A stretch of DNA of 51,759 bases from a virus. The notes beneath the pieces are model-generated. The model worked only from the letters and a program-made list of their open reading frames with translations, was not told the origin of the DNA and searched no databases. A program made the translations under genes and the position numbers. This document shows positions 10,639-50,642 of this stretch, piece after piece; within the stretch, counting starts at the first letter, position 1, and every line of letters begins with the position of its first letter. The DNA is taken from IMG/VR virus record IMGVR_UViG_3300023109_000035, positions 1 to 51,759 of that record. One strand, given 5' to 3'.

Positions 10639-10712
10639 GGGGGATTAGCTCAGCTGGCTAGAGCGCCTGCCTTGCACGCAGGAGGTCATCAGTTCGACTC
10701 TGATATTCTCCA
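10639..10712 (+). tRNA. tRNA-Ala (anticodon TGC)
   Basis: A complete cloverleaf can be drawn. The acceptor stem GGGGGAT pairs with ATTCTCC (with G-U pairs). The D arm is GCTC...GAGC. The anticodon arm CCTGC-CTTGCAC-GCAGG carries TGC (Ala). The T arm ATCAG-TTCGACT-CTGAT keeps the TTCGA core. The discriminator is A, and CCA is not encoded (CAA follows), so the host CCA-adding enzyme is needed. It is the only tRNA recognised. It lies between the end of the early arm and the terminator, so it could be cut from the early transcript. It may supplement decoding of GCA/GCT codons, which are common in the structural genes. Confidence 0.95.
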
Positions 10713-10715
10713 CAA

Positions 10716-11041: not shown

Positions 11042-11196
11042 TACTTATTGTCTTTACTTTTACCCCAATTAGCTGCTCCTTTTTTTCTACATTGTACTAA
11101 CTGGCCAGATGCATAAGCGCTAGGCCAAACTTTAGCTGAAGCTTTTACTTTCTTATAACAAGCATCTTTAACTACTTTTTTTGTTCGTTTTGCCAT
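11041..11196 (-). CDS. 51-residue basic protein with SAYASG...CRKKGA motif
   Basis: The product reads CYKKVKASAKVWPSAYASGQ, followed by a CRKKGAANWG stretch. This is a conserved viral motif I recall fused, in other viruses, to the DUF5872-like half now encoded by the neighbour. It starts inside the stop of the 2990-residue gene (one-base overlap, TAATG) and ends with a one-base overlap into the next gene. Two Cys could bind a metal. The two small genes may be a split version of one ancestral protein. Confidence 0.62.
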   Translation of the reverse strand: MAKRTKKVVKDACYKKVKASAKVWPSAYASGQLVQCRKKGAANWGKSKDNK

Positions 11197-14100
11197 TATT
11201 TCCTTTTATTATATTTTCTTTTATTTTTTCTTTTATTTAAACTTTTTTTAGAACGAGAACTTTTGGATTTAGAACTAGATTCTTTCATTATGTCCCAAGA
11301 AGACCAACCACCTATCATAGCTAATCTTTGCCACCAGTCAGCTTCTTCATTCATAGATCCTTCTATATTTTCCATTTTAAGTAAAACCCTATCTAATGGC
11401 ACATTTGTTGTAGCTGAAATAACTTTGGCCGCAGACATCAAGCCAGGATTATCTAAACTAAATCCTTTATCTAGTATTTCTTGTCTTCTTTTTTTACTAT
11501 CAAAAGCCCAACCTGCAGCTCTTAACCTAGCTATCTTAGAGCCTATAGGTGGAGAAAACTGTAGTAACTTCCACACAGAATCAGTGTACTCTGGCCTAGA
11601 TCTTCCAGATCTTTCGTAAATATCCATTAAAAAGTTTTTAGCTACAGAAACAGTTGCTCCTCCAATGCCTAAACCTCTTAACAACGAATCAGCCATTCCA
11701 TTTATAGTTCTATAAGTTCTTTTCTTTTCATCTTCTTCATCATCTTCAAAACCTAATTTAAACAAAGCTTGTTGTAAAGCGTTGAATATTAAATTCTGTA
11801 CAAAAGCATAATAAACTATTTTACTCATATTAGATTTAGAACTACCTCTTCCATTTACTAAGTCTTGAAAAGCTCTTTTCATTAACCTAGAATACTGCAT
11901 AGGTGTATTAGCAAACATCAATATTAAACGACCAACATCACTTGATTGTTGTTGAGATATTTTATCAGGTCTAGCAGACTGTTGAGATTCTTCAGCTATT
12001 TCTCTAAACTCTCTCATTGCTACTTCTTCAGCTTCTTTTTTAGACATGCCGTCTTTTATTAAAGCATCTATTTTATTTCTATAAAAAGTAGCACCACCTA
12101 AAGCTATTGCAAAACTATCAGCAAATTGAGTAGGTAAATAACCTTTTTCAAGTATATAGGCCATAACAGCTTTAGCTTTGTTTTTAGATGTCTTAGCTAA
12201 GTCAGCTATTTCAGATTCATTTATATTTATTCTAAGACCATTACGTCTATCTCTTAAAAAATCTGAATTCATAAGCGACATAAAATCTTTCCAATACTGA
12301 GGTTGATTTGCAAAAGCTTTACCAGCTTTTAAAGGGTTATTAAAATCCCAATTTATAAAGTTAATAGCAGATATAGTTTGTAATATTGCAGACCTGGTAT
12401 TAAAGAACATAATAGCAGCATTAGAACCATTTATATAATTTAATATTCTATTGCTTAATCTATTACCTGTTTGCAATCTATTGCTACCAGCTTTCATTCT
12501 TGAAAGTACATTCTCTAAAGCTTCTCTATATTTTGCACCATGTATAGCTTCTAGTTTATTTAAGTTTTTATTACTAAATATAATATCTGCATTAGCTTGC
12601 CATTCAGCCAGTAATTCAGATCTTTTTACTTTTAAACCTTGTATTAAGTCAGACGTTATACTACCAGTTAGCCATCCTTCAGCAGGTGCAGGATAAGCTC
12701 TTTTGTTTATTTGTACTAACTTATCTGCAAATATTTTTAATTTTTCATTATTTTCTACAGCATTTACTAGTTCTTTGGTATCTGCTTTAGAAAGACCAGG
12801 TATATCTAAACCTTGTTTATTCCATAAATAAACTCTTACAGCTTGCTCATTAGTAAAACCATCCACAGATTCTTTACTTAATTCTTTAGGAACATCTAAA
12901 TCTTTTTTAAGAGCTTTAAAATCGTTCATTAAATTTAATCTAGCTTGTGACAAAGCTTGATTAGCTTTAGCAAAAGGATCAAATAAATGCTTTTTAAACC
13001 AAGCCATTTGGTTATCGCCTAACTTACCTTTGCTTAACAATGGATATATTAATCCCATAAAATCTTCGGCAGATGGAGGTATCCAAAACTTAAATTTACC
13101 TTTATTAGCGCCTCTAACTTTAGCTTTAGCTTCTGAATATTCCTTTTCAGATGCTATACCTGATTTTTGTTCTATTATATCATTAAAATCTTTATCAACA
13201 TTTAGTGAAAACTTTAATTTAGCTTGTTGAACTTTAGATTTAACATCTACAACTTCTAGCGCATCTCTTACTGCTTGCACATTTTGAATAGCATCATCAG
13301 CAAAGTAAAAATCATTATAACCTTTAGCTGCTTGATCTATTATCCAATTCGCTTTAGATGCTCCTGTTGATTTACCTAAACCTATTATGTTTTCTTTTTT
13401 AAACTCAACACCTTGTGATTTTAAAAATTCATATATAGCTTGCTGTGATTGTGGCGCTCTAGCCGTTAAAACAAATAAATCTTCATTACCTCTAGCGTCT
13501 TTTATTTTTTTAGCTATTTTAAGCAATGGACCTTCTTTGCCTTTAGTTACTTTATTAAACTCACTAAAATCAAACTTATATCCTTGATCTAATAAAGATT
13601 TACCTTGCTCTGCAAACTCTTCTGCATTTAATGTAATGCTTTCATCTCCACGATTAGCTATTACATTTGATTCAGTAGTTGCTAGCGTATCATCAAAATC
13701 AAATACTCTAATTTTTTTAACAGGAGCGTTTAATTTTTTAGCTTGTTTTAAGGCTTCATCAATAGTTTTAGCCTTGTTTAACACGTCGTCCATAGACATG
13801 TTGTCATCCATGTCTAATACTTTAGATTCTTTAAAAACAACTACATTTTCGTCTTTAGCAGAATTTTGGCTTTTATCAAGAATTTCTATATCTTCTATAA
13901 GCTTTTCTACATTACCTAATTCAATAAAAGCTTTTTCACCACTTTTAGCATATAAATTTTTACTAAACTTAGGATTGTTTTTTAAGAATTTAGTTAATCT
14001 AAAAATACCTTCTTTACTTGTTGCACCAGTTTTTGCTCCTCCTTCTACTCCCTTAGCATCTATAACATCCATTAAATATGTTGGTCCAAAAAGCTGTGTA

Positions 14101-17100
14101 TGTTCTACAAACATTTCTTCTAACATTGCGTCTGTTAAATTACCTTCTGCTATACCTAAAAATATTTTAGCCATAGTATTTGCATTAGCTCCTAAGTGTT
14201 CTCCTTTTATAGTTAAATCTTTGTAAGCTGATACAGTACCAAAAGCAGCTTGCCACTGAGCATTAATTAAGTCAAGTTTACCTGCTTCTAAATTATTTTT
14301 TAAATGAAGATCATATCTTTCTTTAAAATCATTTACTGTATTAAAATCTTCTAATAACTCTGCTCTTTGAGCATCTGTCATTTCTAACCACCTACTTATA
14401 GAAGGTTTTGTTTTACCTTCTACGTATTGATTACCTTCTTGAAGATACATAAAGTCAAAACCACTAAGAGATCTAAAGCCTAAAGATATGTTTGTTTGAG
14501 TTTGAAGCATTTGAAAAACATATTCTAAATCTACATCTCCTTTTTTATAAGCTTCATTTAATTTATTAGCTATATACTTAAATAATAGTTTATTAGCTGT
14601 ATTAGCTTTTTCTATTTTTGGTCTTGCTTCTTCTAGTAATTGTTTTTTTCTTTCTAAATTAGTAGTTTCAAATATAGGCTTTAGTATATTTTTTAATTTA
14701 GTAGAGTCTTTATTCATTAATATAGAGTCACTAAGTTTTATACCTAACTTATCTAAATCTTCAACATACTTTACAAAAAGATCATCTGTGTACTCTAAAT
14801 CTTTTAATGCTTGAGCATCATTGTAGTACATTCCCTCTATGAAGTTGCCATCTTCGTCAGTTTGATAAACAGTTTTACCTTGCTCTTTTGATGCTTGTTT
14901 ATCTTTTTTTCTACCTGCAGGGTCTAGTATACCATTTTTATATCCTAAAAAGTCAAATCCTAAAGCTCCAAATACCCTATTGTCAATAGTTTTACCAAGA
15001 GCTTGGCTACCAGCATTCATTCTGTCAGTTACAACTTTATTGTAATTCTTTACACCTTTTACTATAGATCTTAATACTGTTCCTTTACTTTTAATTTTAT
15101 CATATAAAGCTGGATCAATAAGTTTTATAGCTTCTAATACTTCACTTTTAAATCCTTTAGCATCTACATTTAAATCTGGATTTTCTTTATATAAATAATT
15201 TATAAGCTCTCTAAGTTTAGGACTAGATTTTTCTAGTGCTTCTGCAACTTCAGGAACTAAATTACCGTCGCCATCTTCAAAGCCTTTATCTAGTACAAGT
15301 TTATTAAAAGTATCTAAATCTTTTTGTAGATTAGGAGCATCTTCTTGATTTATTGAACCTGCAGAACCATCGTCTAAACTAAACTTAAACGTCATACCTC
15401 TAGCAGTTTGATTAGCTATATCATTAGATACAACCTCTAATTCTGCCATAGTTTTATTCCTATCAGTTAAGTTAGCTAATGTCTCTGGATCTTGTAAAGC
15501 TTGCTGAGATGCATCGAAACCAATAATCTCAGCTACAGACTCTGCTAAAGCAGTTTGCTTAGACGCTGGTCTTCCTGTAGTAGGATTTAAATGCTCTTGC
15601 TTAAATTGGTTTTCATCAAAAGCTTTCTTTTTAAATATAGGATTACCAGCTTTTTTATCTGATACTTGTGTACCAATAGCTTGTGACTCGCCAACAGTCA
15701 TACGTTTTTGTTTTCCAGTAGCTGGATCTATAACAGGTTCTTTAGCAAAAGCAAATCTTTTGTTTACCTGTCTTTGAGTAAGCTTATCGTATATGGCTTC
15801 ACTAAAGTTGTTTAAGAAATCAGTATACTGTTGAGAATTGGGAGTGCCCATTAAATCTTTAACATCATCAACAAATCTTTTAGTTTTAAATTCATTTGTT
15901 AAATAATCAACTATTTGTTTAGGACTTACTAAAACACCTTTTTGTACTTGATTTTTTACCTTGTTGAAAAATCCATCTATAACTTCACCATAAGTTTTAC
16001 CTTGATTAGGACCTTTTTTAATTACTTGTTGTTGAGAAGATTTTAAAAGCTTATCATATTGAGGTTTGTTTATTTCTCTATCAGCAAGCATTTGATCTAG
16101 TTCTTTAGTAGTAAAAAATCCCATAGTTCTTCTAAGACTCTCTCCTTCTTGCCTACCTTCTGGTATTGGTGATTTTTTAGGACCAGTTTTTGGAGCTGCA
16201 TATCCTAATACTTCTGCAGCTATTTGTTTTGATCTTTGTCTTATACCACCTTTTTGATTGTTAATAAACTGGCCAGCTGTTCCATCAAACTCTTGATCTG
16301 TTTTTGCTTGGTAGTCTCTATAAAGTCCTAGTATACCTCTTTCGTCTGTTAATATAGAATCAATTAATGCTTTTCTATTGGCCTGGTATTTAGCGTTGCC
16401 TATGTACTGACTAGCTATAAAAGTAGCTAGTGGTTTAAATTGTTTTAAAACTTCTTCTTCAGTAGCTGTCTTGTCTAATTCTTTATCTATTACTTCTTGC
16501 GGTATTGCTTTAGTAATTTCATCCATTTCATCTATACGAGAAGTTTCTATTTCTTCATCTATTTCTTGACCAGTCTCATCTTGTATAGACAAACCTTCTT
16601 CTTGCAAAGCAGACTCATCTATAGATTCTTTAACAGATATATCTTGCTTTTGTAAAGGACCTTTTGGTGTAATATCTTCAGATATTTCAATACCTTTATC
16701 TAAAACATTTTTTTGAGCTTTAGTTAATTTACCTTTTGCAAAAGACTTATTATAATCTTTTATAAATCTATATACATCTTCTGCTGTATCAAATTTTATT
16801 TTACCTAATTTACTTTCAGGGGCTATTTGTTGAAAAACTCTTCTAACAAAATCACCAAGCTTTGTAAAAACACCTTCGTCAAAAGTAACTTCACCATTTG
16901 TCAGTGCTTCTGATAGTAAAGTAATTTTTTCTTCAGCTCTAATAGATTCAGGTTTGTTTTTGTAAGCATCTAATCTCTCTTTAAAGTTAGCATTACTTTT
17001 ACCATCAACATTCTTTAAAACATTATCTACAGCGTTGCCCATAGCAAAAACAGCTCTATCGTTACCTTCTAATGCAACGCTTAAGACATCATGTAAAACC

Positions 17101-20100
17101 TCATGCTGAGCAGTTGTCCATTTTTTTGAATTATTAATTGCTTCCTCGTTCAGTACAATACTCCTTTTACCATCCTTGCCGTCAACAACGTGTATGCCAA
17201 AGTTTTTAGAAGCGGCTTTGCTTTGCTTATTATTTAGCTTAAACTTTCTTAATTCTTTTTGGGTTTCTTTAGTAGTCTTTTTTCTAATAATGCTAACGTC
17301 AAGTCCAGCGTCTTTAGTTAGTTTTATAGCATTATTAATAGCATTCTCACTATTAGATAAATCTGTTAATTCTTGATTTACTTCTGCTAAAGCTATTTTA
17401 TCTTTACCACTAAATTCATCTAACTGTTCTTTAGCTTTCTCTTGCAATTTTTTCTGCTTAACCATTAGGTCTAGTGCTTTAGATCTGGCTTCATTAGAGA
17501 ACTCCTTAGGTATCTTTAAAGACGAGTTTCTAAGATTAGATATAGCATCAACCTCTTCTTGGTATTGTTCAGGAGTAATTTGTTTTTTATCTAACTTAGT
17601 TTTTAAAGCATTTTGAGCATTTTGAAAAAACTTTGTTTGTTGCTTAAAGTTTTCAGCGTTTTTTAAGTTTAAAGTAATAGCTGCTTGTCTAGATGCTTTT
17701 CTAATTAAACTAAAACTACCTCTAGACATTGAGCCTGCACTAGGAAGTATAGCACCTACTATACCACCACCAGTACCAGCTTGGTGAGCTGAATTTAAAT
17801 CTATTCTTTTGAGTATGTCATTGTCTAGTTGTTGACCAACAGAAGCTTGGCCAGCTAATTCTTGAGCGGCTTCAGTAAAATATTCTTTAATATAACCTTT
17901 ACCACCATTAACCAAAAAAGACTTACTGTTTTTAACAGCGTTTCTTAACTCTCCGTTCATAACTTTAGTTACAAAGTCTTTAGTACCTTTAAACCCCATT
18001 GAAGAAGCTGTAGTTTTTAAAGCTTTATTTATACTACCAAAAGTACCTAACTCTAAACCAGTACTTAAAGCAGCCCAACCAGCTGCTGTTCCTTGATCAG
18101 AATATTTGCCTTCAGCTAAAGCATCTACAATCTCTTCATTGCTAGGTTCTCTTCCTAATTCTTCTCTTAATCCAGTTTCTAAAGCAGTCCAATAATTATC
18201 TCCATATTCTTGACCTCCTATCAACAAAGAACTACCAAGTAGAGACAAACCACCAGTAGCAGGAGCAGCAACAGTACCTACAATTCCTGTAACTATATTA
18301 GGCAATACTTGGCCCACCGTACCTACTACATCTTTAAAAGTTGTACCATCTTCATCTTCAAAATCTATTGTGTCAGCAAGCTCTGCAACTTCTGAATATT
18401 TCTGTAATTCTTCTAAATCGCTTAGTATTATCTCTTCACTTTTAGCATTTTTAGCTTCTCTATTTGCTATATACTCTTCTGGATTAACAACACTAGACTT
18501 CCACTCATTACCACTTACTGAATACTTTTGTTTAGGTTTTTGACCTTCTGTTAAGCCTCCTGGATCTCCTTGACCAATAGTACCTATGTCCATTCTACTA
18601 TAATCTAAAGTTCCATCAGGGTAAGCATATATTTCTTTACCTGGATGAGCAGCTTGTATATTTTTTATTTCATTTATCTGGCTTGTTCTTTCTTCTAAAC
18701 CTAGTTGTTGTTGAGATATTTGAGAAGAGTTAAAGCTTTTTGCTTGATTTTGTATAGCACTATAACCTTGTTCTAAAAGAGTACCTGCTATTCCTGTAAA
18801 ACCGTTAAATCCTTTTGCAACTGCAGCCATTTTATATATTGGGTTATCCATTTTATCAATAAACCTACTAGTCTCTTCAGCTGAAACACCTATTGCATTG
18901 TTAATATCTGACACAACATGTTGGTATATTGGAGACTTTGACATTTTGCTTTGAAACAATTCACTAGTTAGTTTGTTGTATTCTTTTTCAGCCGCTTCAA
19001 TACTTGACTCTGAAGAATCAAGAGTTAAATTATATTTTTTTTCAATGCTTTTTCTTATTGCCTCGTATTTAGGTTTTAAAATGTTTTGAATAGACAAAGC
19101 TTTGTTCTGTAATATAGGATCATTAGTAACTAATTCAGAACTTACTTCCTGTATTCTTTTTGCATAATTTTTAGACACCTCAGGATTTGACATATCTTGA
19201 TTAATAAATTCTTTTTGAATATCACCTAGATAAGTATTTACTTTTTCTTGAAACTCAGGTTTAATTGCGTATTGCATTTTACCATCAATTTCTTTTAACG
19301 TACTATAAGTAGGTTTGTGAAGGTTATTTATTTTTATGTTTTTATCTTTTTCACTTAAGTTGCTACCTTTTATAGCTTTTACTGACTCGTTATAATCTGC
19401 TGTTTGATCCTCAATAGACCTGTCATCATAATAAGCAGGACCTCTACCATTAAAAAGTTTTTCAATTACAACCTGTTCTTCAGTGGGCTTTACTTTGTTT
19501 TCTTCATAAATCTTGTTAGCTTCTTCGTTACTAACTTGAGTATATATTTTTTTAGTTATACCAGTTGATTCAGCATAGGTAGGATCTGGTATTTCTTTTA
19601 CAGTTACTAAAGGTGTGTTTTTAAGCTCTTCTACATGTGATACATTGTTTTGCAAAACTTGATCCATTTTAGGCAAGCTGTTTACAGCAAGCTTATCATA
19701 TATTGTATCTACAAACTGATCATCTTCATCATCACTATCTGTTGCATTTATATTTAAAGCTTTTCCTCTTTTTACTATATCACCTATAGTTCTAGATACT
19801 TCTGATTGATACTCTTCTTCTGACATTTCATCACTTTCACCGCGAATCTTGTTTAATTCTTCTAAAGTTTTTAATGGTTTTTCCTTTGGAACATCTATCT
19901 TTACTTCTGTCTCTACCTCAGGTGGCGCTGTTAACTCTTCTTCTAATGAACCTTCTTTATCTGCTTCCATACCAAACTCTTGAAAAGCAGGATTTATTTT
20001 TTCATAATCGTATCCATTAGCTTCAGCAGTACTAACGTAATCTAGTAAGACATTTTTACCATATCCAGATAGTTCTGGAAAAGCATCTATTGTCTTATCA

Positions 20101-20168
20101 AAATCATATTCAGCACCTTGAAAAGTTGTTATAAAATCTTTTAAAACACTTTGTAAAGATTCGTCCAT
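11196..20168 (-). CDS. Giant multidomain virion protein (2990 aa)
   Basis: The largest gene in the window. The N-terminal 600 residues are mostly acidic and helical. A hydrophobic Gly/Ala-rich segment lies near 615-660 (NIVTGIVGTVAAPATGGLSL). HEVLH at about 1022-1026 is a zincin-type signature. Around 2157 DFDDTLA, later VLTARAP and FADDA match the HAD motifs I, II and IV. The last 650 residues are helical and end in a basic tail (KRKNKRKYNKRK). It fits the polyvalent, or cargo, proteins that tailed phages inject with their DNA, or a structural tail-channel protein. Its gene follows the ejection-type proteins, which fits internal virion use. Enzymatic activity of either domain is unproven. 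Confidence 0.8.
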   Translation of the reverse strand: MDESLQSVLKDFITTFQGAEYDFDKTIDAFPELSGYGKNVLLDYVSTAEANGYDYEKINPAFQEFGMEADKEGSLEEELTAPPEVETEVKIDVPKEKPLKTLEELNKIRGESDEMSEEEYQSEVSRTIGDIVKRGKALNINATDSDDEDDQFVDTIYDKLAVNSLPKMDQVLQNNVSHVEELKNTPLVTVKEIPDPTYAESTGITKKIYTQVSNEEANKIYEENKVKPTEEQVVIEKLFNGRGPAYYDDRSIEDQTADYNESVKAIKGSNLSEKDKNIKINNLHKPTYSTLKEIDGKMQYAIKPEFQEKVNTYLGDIQKEFINQDMSNPEVSKNYAKRIQEVSSELVTNDPILQNKALSIQNILKPKYEAIRKSIEKKYNLTLDSSESSIEAAEKEYNKLTSELFQSKMSKSPIYQHVVSDINNAIGVSAEETSRFIDKMDNPIYKMAAVAKGFNGFTGIAGTLLEQGYSAIQNQAKSFNSSQISQQQLGLEERTSQINEIKNIQAAHPGKEIYAYPDGTLDYSRMDIGTIGQGDPGGLTEGQKPKQKYSVSGNEWKSSVVNPEEYIANREAKNAKSEEIILSDLEELQKYSEVAELADTIDFEDEDGTTFKDVVGTVGQVLPNIVTGIVGTVAAPATGGLSLLGSSLLIGGQEYGDNYWTALETGLREELGREPSNEEIVDALAEGKYSDQGTAAGWAALSTGLELGTFGSINKALKTTASSMGFKGTKDFVTKVMNGELRNAVKNSKSFLVNGGKGYIKEYFTEAAQELAGQASVGQQLDNDILKRIDLNSAHQAGTGGGIVGAILPSAGSMSRGSFSLIRKASRQAAITLNLKNAENFKQQTKFFQNAQNALKTKLDKKQITPEQYQEEVDAISNLRNSSLKIPKEFSNEARSKALDLMVKQKKLQEKAKEQLDEFSGKDKIALAEVNQELTDLSNSENAINNAIKLTKDAGLDVSIIRKKTTKETQKELRKFKLNNKQSKAASKNFGIHVVDGKDGKRSIVLNEEAINNSKKWTTAQHEVLHDVLSVALEGNDRAVFAMGNAVDNVLKNVDGKSNANFKERLDAYKNKPESIRAEEKITLLSEALTNGEVTFDEGVFTKLGDFVRRVFQQIAPESKLGKIKFDTAEDVYRFIKDYNKSFAKGKLTKAQKNVLDKGIEISEDITPKGPLQKQDISVKESIDESALQEEGLSIQDETGQEIDEEIETSRIDEMDEITKAIPQEVIDKELDKTATEEEVLKQFKPLATFIASQYIGNAKYQANRKALIDSILTDERGILGLYRDYQAKTDQEFDGTAGQFINNQKGGIRQRSKQIAAEVLGYAAPKTGPKKSPIPEGRQEGESLRRTMGFFTTKELDQMLADREINKPQYDKLLKSSQQQVIKKGPNQGKTYGEVIDGFFNKVKNQVQKGVLVSPKQIVDYLTNEFKTKRFVDDVKDLMGTPNSQQYTDFLNNFSEAIYDKLTQRQVNKRFAFAKEPVIDPATGKQKRMTVGESQAIGTQVSDKKAGNPIFKKKAFDENQFKQEHLNPTTGRPASKQTALAESVAEIIGFDASQQALQDPETLANLTDRNKTMAELEVVSNDIANQTARGMTFKFSLDDGSAGSINQEDAPNLQKDLDTFNKLVLDKGFEDGDGNLVPEVAEALEKSSPKLRELINYLYKENPDLNVDAKGFKSEVLEAIKLIDPALYDKIKSKGTVLRSIVKGVKNYNKVVTDRMNAGSQALGKTIDNRVFGALGFDFLGYKNGILDPAGRKKDKQASKEQGKTVYQTDEDGNFIEGMYYNDAQALKDLEYTDDLFVKYVEDLDKLGIKLSDSILMNKDSTKLKNILKPIFETTNLERKKQLLEEARPKIEKANTANKLLFKYIANKLNEAYKKGDVDLEYVFQMLQTQTNISLGFRSLSGFDFMYLQEGNQYVEGKTKPSISRWLEMTDAQRAELLEDFNTVNDFKERYDLHLKNNLEAGKLDLINAQWQAAFGTVSAYKDLTIKGEHLGANANTMAKIFLGIAEGNLTDAMLEEMFVEHTQLFGPTYLMDVIDAKGVEGGAKTGATSKEGIFRLTKFLKNNPKFSKNLYAKSGEKAFIELGNVEKLIEDIEILDKSQNSAKDENVVVFKESKVLDMDDNMSMDDVLNKAKTIDEALKQAKKLNAPVKKIRVFDFDDTLATTESNVIANRGDESITLNAEEFAEQGKSLLDQGYKFDFSEFNKVTKGKEGPLLKIAKKIKDARGNEDLFVLTARAPQSQQAIYEFLKSQGVEFKKENIIGLGKSTGASKANWIIDQAAKGYNDFYFADDAIQNVQAVRDALEVVDVKSKVQQAKLKFSLNVDKDFNDIIEQKSGIASEKEYSEAKAKVRGANKGKFKFWIPPSAEDFMGLIYPLLSKGKLGDNQMAWFKKHLFDPFAKANQALSQARLNLMNDFKALKKDLDVPKELSKESVDGFTNEQAVRVYLWNKQGLDIPGLSKADTKELVNAVENNEKLKIFADKLVQINKRAYPAPAEGWLTGSITSDLIQGLKVKRSELLAEWQANADIIFSNKNLNKLEAIHGAKYREALENVLSRMKAGSNRLQTGNRLSNRILNYINGSNAAIMFFNTRSAILQTISAINFINWDFNNPLKAGKAFANQPQYWKDFMSLMNSDFLRDRRNGLRININESEIADLAKTSKNKAKAVMAYILEKGYLPTQFADSFAIALGGATFYRNKIDALIKDGMSKKEAEEVAMREFREIAEESQQSARPDKISQQQSSDVGRLILMFANTPMQYSRLMKRAFQDLVNGRGSSKSNMSKIVYYAFVQNLIFNALQQALFKLGFEDDEEDEKKRTYRTINGMADSLLRGLGIGGATVSVAKNFLMDIYERSGRSRPEYTDSVWKLLQFSPPIGSKIARLRAAGWAFDSKKRRQEILDKGFSLDNPGLMSAAKVISATTNVPLDRVLLKMENIEGSMNEEADWWQRLAMIGGWSSWDIMKESSSKSKSSRSKKSLNKRKNKRKYNKRK

Positions 20169-34461: not shown

Positions 34462-35946
34462 TTATGCTCCTTTGAATAACACGAAGTTATTAGCAGCTTG
34501 TGTAACTAAACATCTTTCAGATAAGAAATTAACTCTCATTGTATCTAAATCAGTAGTATAAGCACCACCAACAGATCCAGTGATCCATGCTTTGAATCTT
34601 CGATCTTCAGTTTCAGAAGCTCTAAATCTTACGTGTAAGAAAGGACGTCTGATATTTGATCCTAACATTTGATCGTATACTGTAGATGTACCAGCTGGTA
34701 TCATAACACCATCAATGGAGTTAGATAAACCTCTTGTAGTAGCATCATTTAAGTATTTCCAATCAGTTTTATAGAAGTCATAAGAACCTCTTCTAAAACC
34801 TGAAAAACCAAAGTTAAGTGCCATTTCAGCTTCATTATCAAATAAACCGTAAGAAGCAGCTTGAGATGAAGCAAATCCACCATTAACAGCAGCTAACATG
34901 TCATCAAAATCAAGAGCCGTAGATCTTGATAAAAATAACATATTTTCTTCAATCGCACCTTGCTTGTCTAGTTGTTTTAAGATTGTATCGAAATCAGCTA
35001 AAGCACCAGAACCAGGAGCAGCCGCACCAGCAAAACCAGAGTATACATTACCTCTTGCTTCAATAGCAGCGAATAAACCTTCAGTACCTTTAATGTTTTG
35101 AGCAGCACCACCTGGGGTGAATCCAGCTCCAAAAGCAGTAGCAGCGTTAGTCATTAACTCTCCTTCAACCATTGACATTTCCATATAATCTTCAAATCTT
35201 AATCTAGTTTCAGACTCAGCTTTTAGATACCATAAGTATCCAGAAGTACCGTCTTCAGTAGCAACTTCGATCCATCCAATTTGTGCAGCATCAGAACCAC
35301 TTAATTCGTAGTTATCTTTTAAGATAATTGGTGAATTAGTAAAAGTAGTTACACCTGGTTCAATTGCTCCACTCATTCCGTTACTTCCTTTTGGAAATTC
35401 AGAACCGTAAACAAATAAACTATTTGAAGCAGCACCTGTTATAATAGTAGCAGCAGCAGTTAAAGCGGCAGCAGTAACTTCATATAACTCACAAGTTAAA
35501 GTATAACCTGAAGCATTTGAAGCAGTAACTAAAGCTTTAGTAGTAACTAACCCAGTAGCATTATCAGAAATTAAAATTGTGTTACCAACTCTAATACCTG
35601 AAGTAGATGGGTTACCAGCACCTGGAGTTATTGTTACTGTAATATCAGCAGCACCACCAACAGCAGCAACTTGTACTGTGTTATAAGCAATGTGTAATCT
35701 GTTTTGTTCAGTCCAAATAACTTGATCAGATGTCATAGGCATTTCAGCTCCTACCATTCTCAAGAAACCAGACAAAGTCCTGTTTCCGTATCTTTCTACC
35801 TCTTGCTCATAAAGCTCTGGTAGATATTGTTGTGCCCATTGTCCACCAGCAACCGTGTTGAAGTCGATATAATTATCTTGTACAACTACTTGGTTTGGCA
35901 TAGGAACTATCGATGCAGGAAAACTCCCACCTGTGTTAAAACTCAT
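34462..35946 (-). CDS. Major capsid protein
   Basis: A 494-residue protein, Ala/Gly/Thr-rich, with the expected HK97-type length. The N-terminal part (NYIDFNTVAGGQWAQQYLPE, then NRTLSGFLRMVGAEMPM) looks like an N-arm and E-loop region. Residues about 95-175 are an Ala/Thr/Val-rich beta insertion. The helical core and GLFDNEAEMALNFGFSGFRR follow. It lies directly after the scaffold-like gene and before a strong terminator, both typical for the most abundant virion protein. The fold is inferred by position, length and composition. Confidence 0.8.
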   Translation of the reverse strand: MSFNTGGSFPASIVPMPNQVVVQDNYIDFNTVAGGQWAQQYLPELYEQEVERYGNRTLSGFLRMVGAEMPMTSDQVIWTEQNRLHIAYNTVQVAAVGGAADITVTITPGAGNPSTSGIRVGNTILISDNATGLVTTKALVTASNASGYTLTCELYEVTAAALTAAATIITGAASNSLFVYGSEFPKGSNGMSGAIEPGVTTFTNSPIILKDNYELSGSDAAQIGWIEVATEDGTSGYLWYLKAESETRLRFEDYMEMSMVEGELMTNAATAFGAGFTPGGAAQNIKGTEGLFAAIEARGNVYSGFAGAAAPGSGALADFDTILKQLDKQGAIEENMLFLSRSTALDFDDMLAAVNGGFASSQAASYGLFDNEAEMALNFGFSGFRRGSYDFYKTDWKYLNDATTRGLSNSIDGVMIPAGTSTVYDQMLGSNIRRPFLHVRFRASETEDRRFKAWITGSVGGAYTTDLDTMRVNFLSERCLVTQAANNFVLFKGA

Positions 35947-46794: not shown

Positions 46795-47775
46795 TTACAC
46801 GTTATCGTATTTTCTTTTTTTGTGAGTGTCATATTTAATATCACCTGCTAGTTTAGAAATGTGTTTTTCATCTGCTGTCATATTCTTGTCACTACCACCA
46901 TGTTTTGAGTCATAATTTATATCTCTTTTTAAATAGTCAATATGAGCTTTATCATCTTTTCTAGCAGCATTAACATTACCTTTAGTTATTTTAGTGTGTT
47001 TACCATACATTCCAGGAGCAGCAGCAACCATGTCAGCAAATTCACCTGTTTTACCTTCCATTGCATTTTTTATACCAGCATTAAATCCTGGACCTTCGTC
47101 ATACATCGCTGACTCAATTTTTTCACCCATACCACTAGCTTCACTTGCTCCGCCTGTAGCAATTCCAGCTATTAATCTTTTTGCTTTACCTTCTTTTTCT
47201 TCTCCTGATTTTGACATAGATTCACCAGCTTCCTGCATTGATTCTTGAATGTCTTTACCGCCTTTTGCTATAATATCAGCACTTTGATTACCTATTGTCC
47301 TGTTTGGAGCACCGTAAGCTGCCATACCTTGTTGGTTTGGAAACACTGGATCTTGTGGCGTGTTTGTGGCTTGATCAAAAGGCTGTCCAGCAGAGCTTGC
47401 TATTCTACTATTAAACATCTCGTTTTGAAATTGAGAAGCAGGCACTTTATTCATTGGTTGTGTAGGATTTGGATTAGCTTGTAACACATTTCTATCTACA
47501 GCTCCTGCAGCTCTATTTTTATCAACCTCAGCTGCTCCAATAGGATTTAACGTTGGGTCTGGCTTTATCATTGGAAATGATTTACCAAAGTTATTCACTT
47601 GTTTCATTTTAGGGGGATTTTGTTTAAACATACTTATAGCTGTATTAGGTTTTTGTTCAAAATAGTAATTAGTTTCTCCTCCATCAGCAGTAGGCATACC
47701 TACGATAGAATCTATAGTAGGAGGTGTAAACTCTTTTTTATCTAATTTTTTATTATATTCACTTTTTAAGGTCAT
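46795..47775 (-). CDS. Low-complexity virion-region protein (326 aa)
   Basis: Rich in Asn, Pro, Lys and Gly with repeated motifs (PNPTQPMNKVPASQFQNEMF), likely flexible; a glycine-rich segment (LIAGIATGGASEASGMG) is in the middle. The C-terminus is His/Lys/Asp-rich (KHISKLAGDIKYDTHKKRKY). By neighbours (structural and lysis genes) it may be a minor virion or tail protein. No family is recognised. Four-base overlap with the winged-helix gene. Confidence 0.5.
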   Translation of the reverse strand: MTLKSEYNKKLDKKEFTPPTIDSIVGMPTADGGETNYYFEQKPNTAISMFKQNPPKMKQVNNFGKSFPMIKPDPTLNPIGAAEVDKNRAAGAVDRNVLQANPNPTQPMNKVPASQFQNEMFNSRIASSAGQPFDQATNTPQDPVFPNQQGMAAYGAPNRTIGNQSADIIAKGGKDIQESMQEAGESMSKSGEEKEGKAKRLIAGIATGGASEASGMGEKIESAMYDEGPGFNAGIKNAMEGKTGEFADMVAAAPGMYGKHTKITKGNVNAARKDDKAHIDYLKRDINYDSKHGGSDKNMTADEKHISKLAGDIKYDTHKKRKYDNV

Positions 47776-48206
47776 CTTGTTTTATCTTTATTAACGAAAG
47801 ATATAGCTCTTGCTGTAACCTTCCATGAGTATTTATTATTATTTTCTAGTTTTTTAGTAGGCATATCTTCTTCACCTAACATTATACGGTACATACGACT
47901 TATTAGTTGCTTACACTTGTATGAAACTTTATATATATGATATTTTTGAGTGGTGTGGTTTCTCTCTCTCCACACTGTAATCCACCCTTGTTTCAATAAT
48001 CTGTTCCAGCGTCTATTATCCCAACTATAGGAGTACGTACCTTTTTTATAATCATCTTTTGTAAAGTGTTCTATAGCGTCTAAGTATACTAACAGCTCTA
48101 AGTCTGCATCTTTTAAGTTACTTATTTTACAAGCCCACTTTCTAATTATTCTATAATGTTTTAGTAAATTTAAATCCTTTAGATCACTAGATTTTATTTT
48201 TTTCAT
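47772..48206 (-). CDS. Winged-helix DNA-binding protein (144 aa)
   Basis: A compact basic protein with a winged-helix pattern: helix LKDADLELLVYLDAIEHF, a second helix SYSWDNRRWNRLLKQGWI and a wing-like strand pair (ITVWRERNHTTQKYHIYKVS). The layout fits MarR-like phage regulators. It is embedded in the late structural block, so it could be a late-expression regulator or modulate packaging. It overlaps the next gene by four bases and starts in the stop of the charged protein. Confidence 0.58.
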   Translation of the reverse strand: MKKIKSSDLKDLNLLKHYRIIRKWACKISNLKDADLELLVYLDAIEHFTKDDYKKGTYSYSWDNRRWNRLLKQGWITVWRERNHTTQKYHIYKVSYKCKQLISRMYRIMLGEEDMPTKKLENNNKYSWKVTARAISFVNKDKTR

Positions 48207-48840: not shown

Positions 48841-49101
48841 TTATATTATTAGTACGACATCAAATTCTTTTATAACTTTGTATTTTTTATTTTTTATTTC
48901 TATACCAAAACCAGCATTTTGATCGTAGTATATTTTATCTTTTCTTTTTAATACTTTAACTTCAGACCCAGGCTCTATAACTATAGCTTGCCTAAACCTT
49001 ATATCTTCTCTTTGTTTGTCACTTAGTATTAAACCACCTTCAGTTTTTATATTTTTTTCTTCTAAAGGCTCTATAACTATATACTTACCTACTGCTTTCA
49101 T
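48841..49101 (-). CDS. groES: GroES-type co-chaperonin (Hsp10)
   Basis: An 86-residue Hsp10. The N-terminus (VGKYIVIEPLEEK) is the usual first strand, the mobile loop KTEGGLILS at about 19-27 carries the GGLIL form of the GroEL-binding GG-I-V/I-L motif, and EFDVVLII at the C-terminus matches the GroES end. It starts inside the stop of groEL (four-base overlap), so its ratio to GroEL is set by translational coupling. It should cap the chaperonin and may let the phage tune its cage for capsid folding. Confidence 0.85.
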   Translation of the reverse strand: MKAVGKYIVIEPLEEKNIKTEGGLILSDKQREDIRFRQAIVIEPGSEVKVLKRKDKIYYDQNAGFGIEIKNKKYKVIKEFDVVLII

Positions 49102-50642
49102 GCTCTTATATTATTAATTACACAATCAGTTGATAATATAGTTGTAGCTACTGAAGCTGCATTAACTAAAGCGCTTTTAGTAACCAATAAAGGATCTATA
49201 ATTCCGGCTTTTACCATATCCACCGTATTTCCTGTAACCACGTCTAATCCTTTACCTTCTTCAAGCTTTTCTAACTCATCAATACCCGCATTTTCTAATA
49301 TTAACTCATAAGGTCTTCTTATTGCTTGGTAAAGTATTTCTTCACCTATAGAATCAGGTTTTAAGTTAAAACTAGCGTTTAATAAAGCTATACCACCACC
49401 TGGTAATATACCTTCTTTTATAGCAGCTCTAGTAGCACAAATAGCATCTTCTACTCTATCTTTTTTTTCTTTTAATTCTATATCTGAATTTGCACCAACC
49501 TTAACTGTAGCTACTTTAGCTTTTAACATTGCTAATCTTTTTTCTGTTTTAATAGCTATATTAGGGTTTTTTTGCTTTTTTAATACTTTTTCTAACATTT
49601 TAATAGTTTCTTCTACTTCCTCATTGTCAGTTAAATCAACTTTTAATATTGTATCTTCTCTGCCTGATATAGATTTTAAACATCTACCTAAATGTTCAGG
49701 TTGTATAATATCCATATCATCACCTAAATCTTCATTTATTAAAGTAGCTCCTGTCAAAGTACATAAATCACTTAATATATCTTTTTTGCTTAATCCAAAA
49801 GCAGGAGAGCCTATTATATTGATTTTAATATTACCCTTTACTTTATTCATAGCTAAAGCATTCATAACTTGAGTATCTACATCGGCTATAACTAATAAAC
49901 TTTCGTTATTTTTTATACAGTACTCTAATATAGGTTGTATTTTCCTAATGCTATCTATATTAGACTCAACTATTAAAACTAAAGGATTGTCTAATTCTGC
50001 TGTTCCCTGTTCTTTGTTTGTTATAAAATGATTGTTTAACAATGGCTTGTGGTATTGTACTCCTTCTATTAAACTTACATTTGTTTCAGAATCTTCACTA
50101 ACTTCCATTATGACTACACCTGTTTCATCAACCAGCTTAAAAGCTTCACCTATAACTTTACCTAATTCTTTATCATTATTTGAAGATATAGTAGCAACTT
50201 GATATATTTTGTCTCCTGTAATATTTTCTTTTATTTTTTCTAAATATGAAATAACTTTTTTAACACCAGAGTTTATACCTTCTCTAATAGACCTTGTGTT
50301 ATCTAATAGCTCATGTTCATTAGCTTGTTTTAATATAGCATGAGCCAAAACAGTTGCAGTAGTAGTTCCATCTCCTGCTTCTTTTACTGTTCTTTGTGCT
50401 GCCTGTTTTATTAAAGTAGCTCCAATATTCTCTAAAGGATCTTGTAGTATAACTGAATTAGCTACTGTTACTCCATCTTTTGTTATTTGGGGCATGCCAT
50501 TGCTGTCTTCTAATATGACACATTTACCACTTGCACCTAACGTTGAACCCACTGCATTAGTAAGTTTCTCAACGCCAGTTAATACTTGACTTTTAGCATG
50601 ATCGCCAAAAGCCAAGTTTTTAACTAACTTTATTTCTTCCAT
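49098..50642 (-). CDS. groEL: Phage GroEL chaperonin
   Basis: A full-length 514-residue GroEL. Equatorial landmarks align with E. coli: ITKDG (D56; E. coli D52), AGDGTTTATVLA (D91; E. coli D87) and RVEDA (D399; E. coli D398, the catalytic Asp). The intermediate and apical domains are present (e.g. EGVQYHKPLLNNHFI). It lacks the C-terminal GGM repeats and ends CVINNIRA. The gene order is groEL then groES, the reverse of bacteria. It should fold phage proteins such as the capsid protein. Nothing suggests it is broken. Confidence 0.95.
   Translation of the reverse strand: MEEIKLVKNLAFGDHAKSQVLTGVEKLTNAVGSTLGASGKCVILEDSNGMPQITKDGVTVANSVILQDPLENIGATLIKQAAQRTVKEAGDGTTTATVLAHAILKQANEHELLDNTRSIREGINSGVKKVISYLEKIKENITGDKIYQVATISSNNDKELGKVIGEAFKLVDETGVVIMEVSEDSETNVSLIEGVQYHKPLLNNHFITNKEQGTAELDNPLVLIVESNIDSIRKIQPILEYCIKNNESLLVIADVDTQVMNALAMNKVKGNIKINIIGSPAFGLSKKDILSDLCTLTGATLINEDLGDDMDIIQPEHLGRCLKSISGREDTILKVDLTDNEEVEETIKMLEKVLKKQKNPNIAIKTEKRLAMLKAKVATVKVGANSDIELKEKKDRVEDAICATRAAIKEGILPGGGIALLNASFNLKPDSIGEEILYQAIRRPYELILENAGIDELEKLEEGKGLDVVTGNTVDMVKAGIIDPLLVTKSALVNAASVATTILSTDCVINNIRA

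Follow-up and report, generated by a model that had tools for sequence, protein, structure and literature searches.

A complete chaperonin pair in reversed, groEL-first order is widespread in a group of phages

The virus record analysed here (the window; 51,759 bases) encodes a complete chaperonin pair in which groEL precedes groES, and this reversed arrangement is real and widespread in the phage group to which the window belongs. Our overall account, which we consider probable, is that of an old, vertically inherited phage chaperonin, paired with its own co-chaperonin and devoted to virion proteins, whose gene order was reversed once. The complete pair has been stably maintained in a widespread group of marine phages and is not stray host cargo. 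The features of the pair are as follows:

49098..50642, minus strand: groEL, a group I chaperonin of 514 aa without a GGM tail and with intact ATP-site residues
48841..49101, minus strand: groES, the co-chaperonin, 86 aa; by alignment, the roof hairpin is lost and the mobile loop has 2 more residues than bacterial GroES
49098..49101, minus strand: ATGA overlap of the groEL stop and the groES start; of 114 distinct viral contigs, 76 share it

The open reading frames, their lengths, and their family assignments all agree with the original prediction of a complete phage groEL and groES. In Pfam, the groEL product matches Cpn60_TCP1 over residues 27–511 (E 2.4e-57, 195 bits versus a cut-off of 34.3) and the groES product matches Cpn10 over residues 2–85 (E 3.5e-11, 43.4 bits versus a cut-off of 21.1), while PHROG assigns them to groEL (E 1.3e-128) and GroES (E 5.2e-11), respectively. 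Alignment to Salmonella GroEL bears out the claims that D56, D91, and D399, which correspond to D52, D87, and D398 in E. coli numbering, are kept and that the GGM tail is absent, the C-terminus being ...STDCVINNIRA. The three aspartates and the GDGTTT motif, all of which serve ATP binding or hydrolysis, show no variation across the clade (30/30 members), and D483 of the window GroEL is likewise intact. The AF2 model of the window GroEL (pLDDT 78.4) matches GroEL with a Z score of 38.8 over 505 residues (rmsd 3.9), and its closest sequence match among solved or reconstructed GroEL proteins is the one reconstructed for the Fibrobacteres-Chlorobi-Bacteroidetes ancestor. For GroES, the AF2 model has an overall pLDDT of 85.9, with the lowest values in the mobile loop, and its fold is that of Cpn10 from T. 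thermophilus (Z 11.6, 75 residues, rmsd 1.2); in a viral structure library, the nearest models are "uncultured virus" entries with 37–40% identity. Both genes are under purifying selection, with dN/dS values of approximately 0.13–0.21 for groEL and 0.13–0.38 for groES, each calculated versus up to five relatives, and the conservation of both is far beyond chance.

The predicted arrangement, groEL first with a four-base overlap, is confirmed by the ATGA at 49098–49101. To see how general this is, IMG/VR was scanned twice, with a GroEL and with a GroES query, and the best 80 matches per scan were kept, giving approximately 160 loci. Among these, both genes are present on 114 non-redundant viral contigs, and the order is groEL-groES in every one (114/114); as the contigs were retrieved for their resemblance to the window, this shows that the order is fixed in the clade and does not measure its frequency among all phages. 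Beside the 76 contigs with ATGA, 36 have overlaps of 17 to 20 bases and two have a frame-broken groEL. At these two loci, L136 (4459–6017) and L150 (2314–3851), genes inserted between groEL and groES were considered and ruled out, given that groEL itself is split into two or three frames with groES intact, either through assembly errors or because the genes are decaying. Among annotated phages, groEL is also first in Elemovirus isolates, in a circular podovirus from Manatee Spring, and in Maribacter phage Panino, where a short gap separates the two genes, while groES is first in Flavobacterium phage immuto, Bacteroides phage DAC22, and Cellulophaga phi40:1, the last with one gene in between. 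All Bacteroidota host loci used in our tree have groES first, in line with the claim that the phage order is opposite to the bacterial one.

In the GroEL tree, the window clade has a support of 100/99 and joins Elemovirus, Panino, the Manatee Spring podovirus, and cr108_1 in a larger group (93/70), the inner arrangement of which is unsure because the deep branches are long. Phi40:1 and then immuto lie outside this group (98/89 and 99/99), with the hosts beyond them. The member cr108_1 is a gut crAss-like phage, and downstream of its groEL (L166, 2992–4476), no ORF matching a hidden groES was present at that site. GroES is too short to give a firm tree but splits broadly like GroEL, the groEL-first phages grouping together with weak support. 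The fixed order and the phylogeny together point to an old phage gene pair.

Only one change of gene order is needed on the GroEL tree, which bears on how the reversed order came about. The original prediction favoured separate acquisition or rearrangement over capture of a host operon. Independent gain of groEL and groES by the phage lineage, followed by their placement side by side with groEL first, would account for an order unlike that of every bacterial locus examined. It is also consistent with the existence of phages that have GroES only (PMC5852040) and with the intervening gene in phi40:1, which indicates that groES and groEL can move relative to each other. However, given the single order change and the similar, if weakly supported, clustering of GroES from the groEL-first phages, one ancient rearrangement of a co-inherited pair explains the order just as well. 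We therefore consider separate acquisition rather unlikely, an inherited pair with a single rearrangement being the simpler account, and the prediction is supported only in part.

The apical and ring-ring contact positions of the phage GroEL carry lineage-specific changes, while the ATP-site residues stay intact. The apical positions concerned are those at which E. coli GroEL binds GroES and substrates. In the alignment, L234Q, V263A, and V264M are each present in 29 of the 30 members, Y203H in 27, and Y199L in 24, so that each of these five positions is replaced in at least 24 members; the hydrophobic residues F204 and L237 are kept. At the contacts between rings, E434 is deleted throughout (30/30) and R452E is frequent (23/30); S463 and V464 are changed too, in a region that is gapped in the alignment. 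R452E is one of the changes that make up the single-ring SR1 mutant of GroEL, and alone it does not predict ring number. The phage GroES has a mobile loop with the hydrophobic tripeptide, in a GGLIL segment of which G22, G23, and L24 are invariant in 38 members, and its two additional residues lie C-terminal to the tripeptide within a near-invariant REDIRY segment. Loss of the roof is suggested by alignment: the hairpin region is approximately 9 residues shorter than in E. coli-type GroES but only approximately 4 residues shorter than in flavobacterial GroES, because the roof of the flavobacterial host protein is itself already shortened.

These data suggest how the pair may work. groEL and then groES would be read consecutively, in the same direction as the downstream lysis, terminase, portal, and structural genes, and the overlap between them suggests coupled translation. 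The phage GroEL ring would bind ATP and non-native phage proteins and would be capped by the phage GroES, not by that of the host; the near-fixed apical changes in GroEL and the gain of the REDIRY segment in GroES fit the expectation for such a co-adapted pair. By analogy with T4 gp31, its clients would be virion proteins, foremost the major capsid protein, the leading candidate being:

34462..35946, minus strand: virion structural protein of 52.8 kDa (PHROG label), located after the terminase and portal genes

The PHROG label and the position suggest that this product is the major capsid protein; it gave no sequence match in the PDB. The altered lid and chamber suggest that the pair may form a matched cage dedicated to the folding of phage virion proteins, and that this cage is perhaps enlarged. 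The reversed gene order would have arisen once in the phage lineage and then stayed fixed. A more specific proposal, which we put forward tentatively, is that the roof-less GroES and the tail-less GroEL, with its rewritten apical surface and R452E-type change, could constitute a self-contained gp31-like cage that is single-ring or easily separating, is reserved for virion proteins, and operates orthogonally to the host chaperonin.

The two proteins might instead work apart, with the phage GroEL acting alone and the adjacent GroES serving host GroEL. There are precedents for both halves of this arrangement, as the phage EL chaperonin functions without interaction with E. coli GroES (PMC7185714) and T4 gp31 works on host GroEL (PMC6318259). 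It is nonetheless improbable for the window, since the two genes overlap and are kept together in all 114 distinct contigs and since the near-fixed changes at GroES-binding apical residues occur alongside a lineage-specific mobile-loop segment.

The phage lineage is marine and podovirus-like and most likely has its host among the Flavobacteriia, as relatives with matching terminases have flavobacterial hosts. A Flavobacteriaceae MAG in GTDB (G001) contains, in addition to its own groES-groEL on one contig, three different contigs with phage-type groEL-groES (L176, L177, and L180), suggesting that phage contigs were binned with the bacterium; this possible host link, a weak one, agrees with the hosts of the terminase relatives. 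The ancestral Fibrobacteres-Chlorobi-Bacteroidetes protein as nearest GroEL makes a very old Bacteroidota origin possible, but we rule out that a flavobacterial host operon was recently captured and then reversed, since the best Bacteroidota host GroEL is only approximately 41% identical to that of the window, host GroES proteins are 20–30% identical, and the AU test on GroEL rejects a tree that unites the window group with Flavobacteriaceae hosts (p-AU 1.2e-8). The phylogeny thus lends no support to a placement of GroEL within a host clade, and the earlier view that no host operon was recently captured holds. Together with the one order change on the tree, the rejection of the host clade makes the reversal look like a single old event within phages.

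The pair is co-directional with the lysis, terminase, portal, and structural genes, and a further gene lies downstream of it:

47772..48206, minus strand: conserved gene of unknown function (PHROG 17028), downstream of groES and present in nearly all related contigs

Panino and the Manatee Spring podovirus also carry this gene close to groEL and groES, within a comparable gene neighbourhood. The motif of a Bacteroidetes-type promoter, TTTG-N17-23-TANNTTTG, is absent upstream of groEL and has six scattered matches elsewhere, as a raw count. The structural gene block ends with a gene (11196–20168, minus strand) whose 2990-aa product resembles a polynucleotide kinase family only weakly (E 1.6e-5, residues 2142–2320). 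A single tRNA-Ala (TGC) is located at 10639–10713 on the plus strand, beyond the block of early-direction genes, which includes a primase/helicase and a ribonucleotide reductase.

Several elements of this picture have been described before. According to a quotation in PMC9611531, Marine et al. 2017 found that gene order on viral contigs tracks GroEL phylogeny; this link is thus already reported, and the window adds a further example. GroEL was described in 36 putative flavobacterial marine phage genomes by Nishimura et al. 2017 (PMC5332604), and both GroEL and GroES have been noted in Panino (PMC11590407). In the Elemovirus isolates, the groEL-first order is already annotated; the 2020 paper on Baltic Flavobacterium phages makes no mention of a chaperonin. 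A limited literature search found no description of a roof-less lid combined with a phage's own tail-less GroEL. Cultured relatives such as Elemovirus allow a direct test of which clients the phage GroEL-GroES has and of whether its cage is enlarged like that of GroEL-gp31.

A parallel in design is T4 gp31, in which the roof loops are missing and the mobile loops are longer, so that the cage is enlarged for its client, the 56-kDa capsid protein gp23 (PMC6318259). The window GroES shares the missing roof loops and the longer mobile loop, as far as alignment can tell, and its model has the same beta-barrel fold as gp31 (Z 9.4 and 8.8). Ordinary Cpn10 is the better match both in fold (Z 11.6) and in sequence, and identity to gp31 is 11–15%, showing no close sequence relation; the likeness to gp31 is therefore one of design and not of descent. 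Moreover, T4 relies on host GroEL, whereas the window phage encodes its own GroEL beside GroES. Pseudomonas phage EL likewise encodes a GroEL-like chaperonin, with approximately 26% identity across 81% of the protein, but unlike the window has no annotated groES adjoining it. The GroEL and GroES of marine virioplankton (Marine et al. 2017) and the GroEL of Bacteroidetes phages (PMC5332604) come from the same habitat and host group as the window. The Manatee Spring podovirus ctfjg026 (MW202828) has the same groEL-groES order, co-directional with terminase and portal, and a terminase 63% identical to that of the window, while its GroEL and GroES are each only approximately 35% identical. Finally, Elemovirus (Flavobacterium phages vB_FspP_elemo, from the Baltic Sea), a flavobacterial podovirus with a terminase 46% identical to that of the window, also has groEL first and groES directly after it, with a 1-base overlap; its GroEL is only 36% identical to the window protein and, unlike in the window, its pair is encoded on the other strand from the adjacent genes.
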